Below are positions 18,572 through 44,809 of a stretch of 64,000 nucleotides of DNA, in pieces (the stretch's first letter is position 1; each line of letters opens with the position of its first letter). Where the stretch lies: the NCBI GenBank assembly GCA_030141605.1, contig JAQGDQ010000075.1, forward strand, positions 186,001 to 250,000, written 5' to 3'. A model generated the notes under the pieces. It had not been told where the DNA came from and ran no database searches. It saw only the letters and a program-made list of their open reading frames with translations. This DNA is from Tubiluchus corallicola. Taxonomy: Eukaryota > Priapulida > Priapulimorpha > Priapulimorphida > Tubiluchidae. Both the position numbers and the translations under genes were made by a program.

Positions 18572-21500
18572 TTAGTGTTGGCACTCTCCAAGATTCCGTA
18601 AAGGACCTTCCCAGTGTTTACCTGCAAATATGTTGGCATGACTACTCAGTTCAATTTCATGATTTCAAGAATGGGGAATTCACAAAAACAAACAAGCAAC
18701 AAACAGTGATATGGTATCCACAACCGCAGAAGCAGCAGTTAGTGTGGAGAGTGACTAAATTATTAACATGCACAGTATCTTCTTCAAAGCTTGAACAATT
18801 TATACAAAGGCAAATTTGCTTGGACAAACCAAGCTGCTCAGAAAGGAACAGGTCAGCATTCATGTTTCAGTGGAAAAGAAAATTATTCAGGCTTTCTATT
18901 TTATTCGGTCAGGTGGAGTTATCATTCCAAACCAGCAAGACAAGCTGACAAGTTATTTGATACAATAGTGAACATCATTGATCATGAATATCAAAGCCAA
19001 CTGAGATTAGGCACAAGTCCTACCTAAAAACCAAGCTAACAACTCAAATCTGTCACTGCCAAAGAACAGGTGATCCTTGCCATCTTTTTGTACAATGAAC
19101 GTCGGCACACCAAATGCCTGCAAAAAATAATCTATTTTGGAATCGTGTGTAACTGAAAATTCTTTCTACAGTTTACAGTAAGAATTATACCGGGATTATA
19201 CATCTTACTGGGATAATCACTGAGTATAAAAATTATTTTTTGCCAACTATTACAGCTACTGAAACTACAATAAATCTTGTCTTTCTTCTAGTTGAACACA
19301 CATGCACCTAGAAGTGTCGCATAAAAGCAGACCGACATCTCTCGCGGGTTAAGCATGCGTCACACACATTTTAAGTCTCACATGTGCATCAAATTTCAGT
19401 TCTCATGCGTCGTGCAATTTCAAACTCAAGTTTGCAAATAACTTGACTTCCTTTGCCATCAGTGCCAACTGTGACACAATTACACAATAATACAGTAGCG
19501 TCATGAGTCTCATGATGCATGTTAACTAAAGGGTACATATTCAATTATTGAAAACTAAGCACATATGGGTGCCACTGAGCTTTTTTTTATTTGTAAAAAA
19601 GAACATTATACAAAAGTCCAATAACAGCATAAGAAAGCTCGGTAGTGCCCAAAAATTACCTTAAGGTTGTATTTTCTTTCGGCTTAATTTTTTGATAATT
19701 TGATTTTTATAACCAAAAATTTGTATGTGGGGCATAACTTGCTACCCTTGGACTCCTCTGGGGCGAGACGACCCCCCGGGCTTCTCAGTTTTTCGCATTC
19801 ATTTTTACGGCAAACGACTGGCAGGTATGATTTATCTTTGGAACCTGTCTGTTCTTTGTGGAGGTAACTTCTCCTGGGAGGGAAATCTGGGGCATGGAGT
19901 GTACTAAAATGCAGAGGGTAAACATGTGAGAAAAAAGAAAGCATTATTTTGTATTAGCTATTGTATGACTCGGAGCAGTAAGCAGATGCCGATCAGTGAA
20001 AAGTTAAAGCTGTACGAAACAAACTAAAAAATTTTAAATGTCTTAAATGGTTTAACTTACGCCACATTTTGCAGCCTCCTCAGTTGTGACTTTCAGTTTT
20101 TCTTTAATGGGCTGTTGAGTATACTGTGACAGTACATTTTTAGTTAGAGGCTCTGGCAAGTTTGATGCCAGTGCAGCTTGTTCCAGACTTTCTGCTTGTG
20201 TTATATCTTGGTCCTAGAAATTTGCAAACACTTTCAAATGACTTTTGCTAGCAAAAATGTAGAGTAATACCCAGACTGAGTATACAACATAAATGCTTTA
20301 TGATCACACGTGTTCCTATGTGTACAGTGTACAGACAATGTCAACATACAATTGACCAAATATGAAATATTTATTTGATACATTAAGAAGAGTTTGGAAC
20401 ACAACTGATAAAGCGTGGTTCTTTAGGTAGACAACAGGCCACACTGCAACTTCAATTTTCTCTTAGAGAACTTTATTAATAAGAGAAAAAAGTATACATA
20501 AATACGGGTCGACTGGTATACCAGACCGTATTGGAACTGCCGCTAGTATTTTCGTCAATACTGGAAATGTGATGGTAATGAAATGAGGATTGGAATTGAC
20601 ATCTAACATAATTTCAATCATTTTCATTGACTGCCCAATCAGCGTGCAAGTTATTTCGCACACCTGCAGAGCCTAATTAACACAGGTACGTTTAGGACAC
20701 TTAGTTACAGTTCCGTCTAAGACTGTTGTGAAAACTGCTCAACTTTTGATTAGTTAGCAGGTGACATGTTGGCCTGGTTCTAGATTTTATTATTGTCAAT
20801 TGAAATTGCAAGTGAGCTAGTGGAAATATATAGTCTAGTTTCGTTTATAGGAAGAAATGCACAACGCTTACGTCTATGAGTTGCTGATTAAACCATTTTG
20901 CAGTCAAGAAAATATGCAGTTAGTTTGGTTTATGGCTTTGCAAGTTAGATAAAAACAACTATTTGATGAACTTTAAATAAGGACAAAACAAAATGTTTTC
21001 TTTTCTGGTCATTCATAAACCTCAATGAGATCTTCACAGTCAAAATTAATTCAAATGTGGTCAAAACCGATATTATACATCAATGTAGTATTAGCTATTT
21101 CATGCTATTTTTCTGGTTATAACCATGGTTAAAAGATGCCATTGGGACTTATGTAACTCGGGCATTCAATATAAGGGTCGTCTGTGAACTGAATAAATCT
21201 TGCAGATGAACACATGATCAGTTAATATAGAAAAAATACATCGCAGGCATGTATGAAGTTCGTATGTTCAAAGGCAAGAAAGACATAATATTTTTGTTGC
21301 TCATTTATTGTAAAGCAAGGCTAACTGGCTTAGTTTCTTTTTTATACTTATGTCTCTGTATTTTGTAGTGCTTTGAAACTTCATTCTGTTTAAATTGAAA
21401 AGTCATTTTTTGGCTACTTGAAGTGTTAATTTAGTTTAAAAATAGCTGCTGCTCTGCAAATTTATGTTTATGAAAAAGTGCAGTTTATCTGCTGATTAGG

Positions 21501-41900: not shown

Positions 41901-44809
41901 CCTCAAATCATTGCACCATGGTCCACTTGACCAGTTCGCACTTTTAGTTTAATAAAGTTCCCTATAGGTATTATATAATATCATGTAATTGCCTTTTCAC
42001 TTTGTTGTGTTACTAATTGGAAATTATATAATACTGCTCTGGGGCTTAGAAACCAACTCTGCCAGATGTAAAAAGTAGATGTTTTGCTAGAGATGTTTTG
42101 TAGGTGGCTATTCTTTGTTGGTAGAAAAATATTTGATTTTGTTGTCAGCTAATAATTATGCAGATTTTACAACTTAGGATGAGGATGTAACAAAACTGGA
42201 AAGCTTTAGGGATGCTGCAAAAGTTGCTGGTGTGCCAAATGAATCTGTTAGAAAATTGCTTACTTTATACACTCAACAAAGTACCAAAGACAAGTTGAAA
42301 GAAACTACTGCGGAAGCCATACAACATGGGGTAAGAAAATAATTTGTTAGTGAATTATTGTGAGTGTATCATGTAATTGCCTTTTCACTTTGTTGTGTTA
42401 CTAGTTGGAAATTCAGCTATATTTGGAATATTAATTGTTACGTTAGTGTTGTGTGACTACACTCATTAAATATACGCATTAAATATATCTCAATGGTAGT
42501 GCACGTATATTCTATAGGCGATTATGTTTTTTGCACTCAGTTGCAGAGCATTTTTTACAGTTCACTTGGTTATATATAATGCTAATGAAGTAGAAATGAC
42601 TTCATTGTAGGTCGTCAGACTCATCATTGATCAGTTATTGTAACTGATTGCTATAGAGTAACGTGCAGTATGCAGTTTTTATATGATATAACGAACTAAG
42701 ATGCATATTTGACTCGGCTGAAAGTTGACGGAGCAGGTCTTTCCCCACGTTTAGAGTCAAAGCTATCTCTAAACTCAATAAAAACACTATTGGTGCGGGG
42801 ATAGAAATTCCCAATGATTGATTATTGAATTGCAATATCTACTACCACTTATATTTTCATTTACAGATTGTATGTTATGAAGTGATAGTGTAAATAAGTA
42901 CATCATGATGTATGTTTTTACTCATTTGTTTATTGCTTTCATTTACAAATATATACAGGTAACACAGCAATGGACATCAAACACTAATAATACTTTTTGA
43001 GAACAAACTTTAGATAAAAACATTCAGTTTAGTGCATTGAACGAAAAATAAATACAATTTTATTCTTGTTCTGTATATCACGCTATCACGTGAGATCCAT
43101 CATATATCACACCACACCTCACCATACCCAGTACTCCACACCACCCACATCACCAAGAGCAACTGCCGCCCCTGCCAATGGTGATAATGATGGCTACAAC
43201 GATGACGATGACAATAGCCTAGTGCAAAAATATTATGAAACTGAAACTGTTGAAACTGAGTGAAATTACAAACACATTTAGACCAATCTACTGATGATCA
43301 TTAATGTGTGAATATTCTACGTAGTTCTTGCAAGCGATTCCTTTAATGATGGCAGTAAGCTAACAGTTACCACTTTATACACATTATAATAGCACACAGC
43401 AGCTTAATAAAAATATGTTAAGTACAGGCAGAACACAATGCTACGACACCATGTATATCCCAAACAATGGCTTTGCATCAGCAGTTTTTCAAATAAGATT
43501 TTCCCAAAATGGAATATGCAATTAAATCGTAGCCACTCTTCTTGGTGAAGGCATCAACACAGAGATCCATATCATCGTGTAGTCGTGATCCTCCTTTTTC
43601 CAAAGAGCTATGAATCTCCCTCCAAGACCGCCATGGAGTACCGCACAAACTATTTGTCTACATTGATGTTTGGTCAAAATTTTAAAATGTTTGGTCCTGA
43701 TTAATGCTTGTATGGAGGCTACTCTGTTACACCCTATGATGATTGCTCTTTTCATTGACATATAGCATATCAGCTCTTGTGGTCCCTTTTCTTCAGATCT
43801 CAGTTTTGTGAAAAAAACAGGCAAAAAAGCCCTCGCAGATAACTCTGATAAAAGAATGGCCTCCTATGTGACTGCAATTTATTGCAAATAGTTGAGTTGA
43901 ATGGTCGAAAAAAAATAAAAATATATAGTTAGTTTGTAATGAGACAGCTGTTCTATAGTTTTTTAATTTTAAACATGGTCACTTTTCCTCTGTTGTTTAA
44001 ATACTATTTTTCAAAGTATGCATTGTTATTTCCCACTGAATAATTTTGTCATTTTTGTAAAACTTGTACTAACTAGTAACCAAATTTCTCGTGGCTACAG
44101 TGGAATTACCATCGCAGAGCTCATGTTGCAAGCAGCATTTTGCACTTTGCAATAACATTTCTTTTATTTTTTGTATATAGGCTTTTGGAGCTCCTATAAT
44201 AGTTGTGCACAAGGATGGAAAAGACCACATGTTTTTTGGCAGCGACAGATTTGAGTTGTTGGCTTGGTTTATAGGTAAATTTATTGTTATTAATGAGAGT
44301 GACCAGCAAACATCCAGGTTGACTTGTTAAAATCATTCTTTACCAAAGCTTTATGGTTATGCCAAACAAAATAATTCTCCCTATAATAACTTTCTCCACA
44401 TTTGAATCTGTTCCTAAATTGCATTTAATTATATTTTTGATTTTTTTCAGCTAATTATAAAAATTACCATTTATTATTGAAGGCGAGATTGAAATTGAAG
44501 ATGTAAAAATTCTGAAATCGAATTTAAGAGTATTAATGATTTTTCACCATTTTTTAACTCTCATTATCAATGTTAAGAAAATGCTTAGCAACTTATACCT
44601 GGAAGAAAGGACTGATAACTGTCTGTGATAAGTTTACATCTTGATTCTACGATTTTAATTGTATACTATTGCCCAAAAGAAATTATTTATTCAGTAGCCT
44701 TCAAAATTGGTAATGTGTGGAAATAAGTTGTATAAAAAGCGTTATTATACTAATTTCAGGCAAAAAATGGGAAGGTCCACTTCGAGAGCTGGCTACTTCT
44801 AAACTCTGA
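38984..44809 (+). CDS. glutathione S-transferase kappa (GSTK1-type), paralog B, seven exons, ends in peroxisomal signal SKL
   Basis: Exons: 38984-39061, 39514-39595, 40672-40772, 41323-41451, 42178-42330, 44181-44274, 44760-44809 (stop TGA). They total 687 nt, 228 aa. All junctions are GT-AG with matching phases. The start ATG is fixed by an in-frame TAA nine codons upstream (38957-38959). A TTTTCAG acceptor at 38940 suggests a 5' UTR intron. The protein has YDVASPYSW with the catalytic Ser at residue 18, then [43 protein letters not shown] (cis-Pro region) and [15 protein letters not shown]. It ends in SKL, a canonical PTS1, so peroxisomal import is expected (human GSTK1 ends in ARL). The last six exons equal those of paralog A in length (82, 101, 129, 153, 94, 50). 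Intron 2 opens with a giant (GA)n tract three bases after the donor site. Confidence 0.94.
39598..40243. repeat. uninterrupted (GA)n microsatellite, about 646 bp
   Basis: About 323 perfect GA units with no interruption, starting within the donor consensus (G|GTGAGAGA) of GSTK paralog B intron 2. The long open frames through it on both strands are artefacts of the dinucleotide repeat. The true length may differ if the assembly collapsed or extended it. Confidence 0.98.

Follow-up and report, generated by a model that had tools for sequence, protein, structure and literature searches.

A divergent pair of GSTK genes in the priapulid Tubiluchus corallicola, one with and one without a C-terminal peroxisomal targeting signal

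According to its title, a 2009 study by Petit et al. (FEBS J 276:5030), cited by both PMC7217849 and PMC4905960, reportedly assigns GSTK-1 of C. elegans to peroxisomes and GSTK-2 to mitochondria. For vertebrate GSTK1, the cited sources state that the zebrafish protein ends in AKM, termed a type 1 peroxisomal targeting signal (PTS1; PMC8919083), that GSTK1 of HEK-293 cells co-fractionates with a peroxisomal and with a mitochondrial marker (PMC10295636), that full-length human GSTK1 has very low affinity for PEX5 while its 12-residue peptide has intermediate affinity (PMC9669585), that the enzyme is dimeric (PMC10295636, PMC9669585), and that its reaction in vivo is unknown (PMC10245115). Here we analyze a window of 64,000 nucleotides from the priapulid Tubiluchus corallicola (assembly GCA_030141605.1, contig JAQGDQ010000075.1, positions 186,001 to 250,000 of the forward strand; all coordinates below are those of the window), which holds two complete GSTK genes, A and B, in divergent orientation. 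Our analysis suggests that both genes are probably functional and have diverged from each other, B as the conserved enzyme of peroxisomes and A as a copy that lacks a PTS1 and is most likely mitochondrial.

GSTK A lies on the minus strand, running from 24423 to 18572, and encodes 229 amino acids; GSTK B occupies 38984-44809 of the plus strand and encodes 228. Each gene has seven exons, and 14,560 bp separate the two start codons. The gene models were built exon by exon from homology and splice consensus, without transcripts:

24343 to 24423, minus strand: GSTK A exon 1, 81 nt from the ATG, with a GT donor; a second in-frame ATG lies 66 nt upstream
23852 to 23933, minus strand: GSTK A exon 2, 82 nt
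23153 to 23253, minus strand: GSTK A exon 3, 101 nt
22600 to 22728, minus strand: GSTK A exon 4, 129 nt
20061 to 20213, minus strand: GSTK A exon 5, 153 nt
19024 to 19117, minus strand: GSTK A exon 6, 94 nt
18572 to 18621, minus strand: GSTK A exon 7, 50 nt; C-terminus GECQH, then TAA; no PTS1
38984 to 39061, plus strand: GSTK B exon 1, 78 nt from the ATG; in-frame stop upstream
39514 to 39595, plus strand: GSTK B exon 2, 82 nt
40672 to 40772, plus strand: GSTK B exon 3, 101 nt
41323 to 41451, plus strand: GSTK B exon 4, 129 nt
42178 to 42330, plus strand: GSTK B exon 5, 153 nt
44181 to 44274, plus strand: GSTK B exon 6, 94 nt
44760 to 44809, plus strand: GSTK B exon 7, 50 nt; C-terminus TSKL, then TGA; canonical PTS1

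These rechecked models confirm what an earlier note on this DNA had claimed, namely that two seven-exon GSTK1-type genes lie head to head in opposite orientation, that exons 2-7 agree in length and phase, and that B ends in SKL and A in GECQH without a PTS1. The intron phases common to both genes are 0,1,0,0,0,1, and all 12 introns begin with GT and end with AG. The note had also held that the introns differ completely. This stands for their lengths, which are equal at no position (409/598/424/2386/943/402 in A vs 452/1076/550/726/1850/485 in B), and is nearly right for their sequences: when 18401-28000 was compared with 30001-46000, six of the seven matches at E<1e-3 were the exon pairs 1-6, and the seventh, outside the exons, paired 21840-21958 in intron 4 of A with 38013-38144, upstream of B, at 63% similarity and is probably a dispersed repeat. 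Intron 2 of B holds a perfect (GA)323 microsatellite at 39598-40243, which starts at intron base 3, directly after the donor GT; if this donor is missed, the reading frame continues through the repeat. The length of the repeat may differ among individuals and may influence the splicing of B.

The strict PTS1 pattern is a C-terminal [SAC][KRH][LM]. B, with TSKL before its stop codon, matches this pattern, and A, with ECQH before its own, does not. The last exons of the two genes are equal in length, which is consistent with loss of the signal in A by substitution. We looked for other products of A that might carry a strict PTS1 and found none, whether among the 54 candidate acceptors for an alternative last exon downstream of exon 6 (searched as far as about 16870 and counting the real acceptor; a single product, ending in NSF, matches a loose PTS1 pattern), by readthrough of the TAA, which adds ALMPEQN before the next stop, or by retention of each of the six introns. 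In human and rat, GSTK1 has ARL as its C-terminal tripeptide. Together with the AKM of zebrafish this makes a C-terminal PTS1 the likely ancestral state, one that A has probably lost.

How could such a pair work? B would be imported into peroxisomes via PEX5 and its C-terminal SKL, and would retain the ancestral peroxisomal role of GSTK; we are highly confident that B is a peroxisomal protein. A, taken on its own, is very likely excluded from PTS1 import. Barred by itself from the PEX5 route, A would serve the other location of GSTK, most likely the mitochondria, which it could enter with the help of internal targeting information in the mature protein, of the kind predicted for human GSTK1. 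A dual-targeted ancestor would thereby have been split into one copy with a strong PTS1 and one copy without.

By sequence, both proteins are members of the GSTK family. The Pfam DSBA profile (PF01323) matches residues 11-210 of A (1.6e-35) and residues 10-209 of B (3.3e-41), and the SPYSW motif with the catalytic Ser16 is present in A, B, and the human and rat proteins. Asn53, Lys62, Ser200 and Asp201 (human numbering), which we take to be glutathione-site residues of GSTK, are conserved in both A and B, as is Ser16. The last of these is given as critical for GSTK1 (PMC10295636). A and B are 56.1% identical to each other (128/228 columns); identity to human GSTK1 is 39.4% for A and 46.5% for B (226 aligned columns, full length), and to rat GSTK1 41.2% and 46.9% (226 columns), mammalian GSTK1 being the nearest to the pair among the sequences compared. 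Searched as a profile, these four proteins recovered 2imd (E 1.1e-9) and 3fz5 (E 5.1e-9) as relatives. Further afield, a search of prokaryote genomes with B gave 27 pattern-matching stretches, just one of which was confirmed (30%, in a metagenome-assembled genome of Rhodospirillales), and a search of viral contigs with the four-sequence alignment gave 84, none of them confirmed.

Both genes look functional by the record of substitution in their coding sequences. Between A and B the nonsynonymous divergence dN is 0.32-0.34 and the synonymous divergence dS is 1.7-5.4 across three methods, so that synonymous sites are saturated. When the coding sequence of B was mutated without selection at 0.05, 0.1, 0.2, 0.4 and 0.85 substitutions per site, its frame stayed open in 347, 85, 10, 0 and 0 of 2000 runs each. 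Since neutral runs leave no open frame at 0.4 or 0.85 substitutions per site, both below the A-B synonymous distance, and since the frame of A is intact, A appears to be working rather than drifting. The two copies have not changed at the same pace. In relative-rate tests rooted on human GSTK1, 27 differences were peculiar to A and 11 to B (chi-square p 0.009, binomial p 0.014), and with rat in its place the counts were 25 for A and 12 for B (chi-square p 0.033, binomial p 0.047); the tree described below gives branch lengths of 0.54 for A and 0.19 for B. By these measures A evolves faster, and B is the conserved copy.

As far as the assembly and a search with B as query go, A and B would make up the entire GSTK set of the organism. 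That search covered 343.5 Mb in 2344 contigs and accepted E values as high as 10; each of its 13 matches lies within the window, seven being the exons of B and six belonging to the seven exons of A, the latter at 42-76% identity per exon. No further GSTK and no haplotype duplicate turned up elsewhere in this search, which a more diverged copy could escape. Within the window, queries with A, B and human GSTK1 gave only chance-level matches outside the two genes. The Pfam DSBA profile, run against the genome, reported neither A nor B, whose exons are short, which shows that such a scan misses genes split into exons. Its single match was a DsbA-like frame in a bacterial-looking region (G000:C2335:281831-285262) of another contig in this assembly, which is 293 kb long. 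The 3.4 kb seen of this region consist of uninterrupted frames, among them the DSBA match and what we take to be a glutamate-synthase-like frame; the contig possibly belongs to a symbiont or a contaminant.

The best explanation for the two genes is that a GSTK gene with seven exons was duplicated. That the duplication is not recent, as previously claimed, is borne out by the 56% protein identity and the saturated synonymous sites; that it was inverted we infer from the position of the genes. In a tree built from six rows, namely the two paralogs, GSTK1 of human and of rat, the Rhodospirillales protein and a fragment of 3fz5, A and B are joined with a support of only 57/54, and the approximately unbiased (AU) test rejects neither a grouping of B with the two mammals (p 0.261) nor one of A with them (p 0.26). 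Lineage-specific sisters and an ancient pair are thus both compatible with the six-row tree. The two genes may instead be an ancient animal GSTK-1/GSTK-2 pair that was kept linked, with no duplication in this lineage, which is a question of age and separate from that of location. We regard this as a serious possibility, though one that falls short of even chances: the saturation of synonymous sites and the outcome of the AU test are in its favor, whereas the shared exon plan, the union of A and B in the best tree, however weak, and a mutual identity of 56% compared with 39-47% to mammals argue for a closer relationship, although slow change in B could mimic the last of these.

We now return to the location of A. 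The earlier note had the two locations divided between the paralogs, and of this the contrast in PTS1 stands, while a mitochondrial A is something we infer. We put it at only a little better than an even chance. Several points weigh against it and against the wider reading of the locus. By simple measures, taken without a dedicated predictor, A has no classical mitochondrial presequence: the net charge of its first 20 residues is +1, and there is no arginine among its first 30. B scores alike at its N-terminus (+1, with one arginine), so that this end does not single out A as mitochondrial; human GSTK1 has -1 and two arginines, and all three proteins are alike in having no clear basic presequence. 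The frame of A is open upstream of its ATG, with the other ATG 66 nt up, which makes an upstream coding exon possible for A (the frame of B is closed there by its in-frame stop); a start at the longer in-frame position lowers the net charge over the first 20 residues to -1. Moreover, an endoplasmic reticulum (ER) location of GSTK1 in HEK-293 cells is not excluded by PMC10295636, where the ER also appears as a proposed location, and the six-row tree does not date the A/B split.

Loss of the PTS1 could have left A in the cytosol (or the ER), perhaps with another substrate. Such an enzyme would need neither a PTS1 nor a classical presequence, both of which A lacks, and the faster evolution of A as well as the ER proposal for GSTK1 (PMC10295636) would agree with it. 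The only published division between GSTK paralogs that we found is, by its title, that between peroxisome and mitochondrion, however, and human GSTK1 co-fractionates with a mitochondrial marker despite having no evident presequence, so that we consider a cytosolic or ER location unlikely. A second possibility is that A enters peroxisomes piggyback, as a heterodimer with the SKL-bearing B, in which case the pair would provide mixed dimers rather than two locations. GSTK1 is described as dimeric, and A and B are still 56% identical, but contact between them is hypothetical here and we think the idea quite improbable. Finally, that A is a decaying or untranscribed copy, as its faster change and a LINE-type frame starting about 100 bp from its start codon might suggest, is very improbable, because the gene is undamaged in each of its seven exons, at the splice sites of all its six introns and in its frame, a state that neutral drift over the A-B distance would not leave. 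A PTS1-less, most likely mitochondrial A beside a peroxisomal B remains the explanation we prefer.

The 14.6 kb that separate the two ATGs include remnants of retrotransposons as well as other repeats, among them a frame of the long interspersed nuclear element (LINE) type:

24525 to 26588, plus strand: LINE-type reverse transcriptase frame (RVT_1), running opposite to A from a point about 100 bp upstream of the A start codon

These coordinates delimit the frame from stop to stop. No target-site duplication was found for it, the longest shared word, 10 nt (TCTTCTTTCT), not flanking the element. Minus-strand frames at ~27500-30300 resemble, on visual inspection, fragments of a second LINE, and three of them gave no Pfam match when tested. 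With a LINE frame and repeats between the genes, any promoter that they once shared is no longer compact. Elsewhere in the window, an uninterrupted 628-residue frame with a FAP206 domain (1.2e-66) lies at 14978-16864 on the plus strand, near the intron-bearing GSTK genes, and is possibly a retrocopy. Downstream of B, at 46499-46687 on the minus strand, there is a partial RGS domain (8.3e-16, covering positions 9-66 of the 117 in the profile), the remainder of which is presumably in another exon, and an 82-bp tandem repeat in four copies occupies 60882-61210. The FAP206 and RGS domains, the LINE-type frame and the interrupted, mammal-like GSTK genes all fit the DNA of an animal. G+C content is 31-37% per 4 kb, and the observed/expected ratio of CpG ranges from 0.37 to 0.65 over the first 52 kb and from 0.74 to 0.85 beyond. 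Scans of the window for tRNA genes and Rfam families gave no match.

How, then, does this locus compare with known systems? Bacterial 2-hydroxychromene-2-carboxylate isomerases (PDB 2imd, 3fz5) are relatives of GSTK by profile search, but in the tree the fragment of 3fz5 takes a distant outgroup position. Vertebrate GSTK1 (PDB 1yzx, 3rpn, 1r4w) is much closer, being of the same family and of near-equal length (226 amino acids), with the same residues at the glutathione-site positions checked and with a PTS1-type tripeptide, ARL, at its C-terminus. It differs from A and B not only in sequence (39-47% identity) but also in arrangement: there one protein with a poor PTS1 has two locations, whereas here there are two genes, with SKL in one and no PTS1 in the other. 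More generally, a divergent pair of this kind could be a long-kept animal arrangement that resolves a weakly dual-targeted enzyme into two organelle-specific genes, arising either once, anciently, with vertebrates losing one copy, or repeatedly; we find this doubtful at present. An organism in which SKL is carried by one GSTK gene and missing from the other would allow the organelle roles of GSTK to be studied apart, and would bear on whether the splitting of a dual-targeted enzyme after duplication occurred more than once. A search of the literature on GSTK gene duplication, peroxisomes and invertebrates found no report of such a pair. C. elegans GSTK-1 and GSTK-2 come nearest, as two GSTK genes in one animal that are assigned by title to peroxisome and mitochondrion, although the split is stated there and the locations of A and B are predicted. 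Thus the division of GSTK between peroxisome and mitochondrion is as an idea not new, and the pair in Tubiluchus corallicola is a sound further example of such a gene pair.

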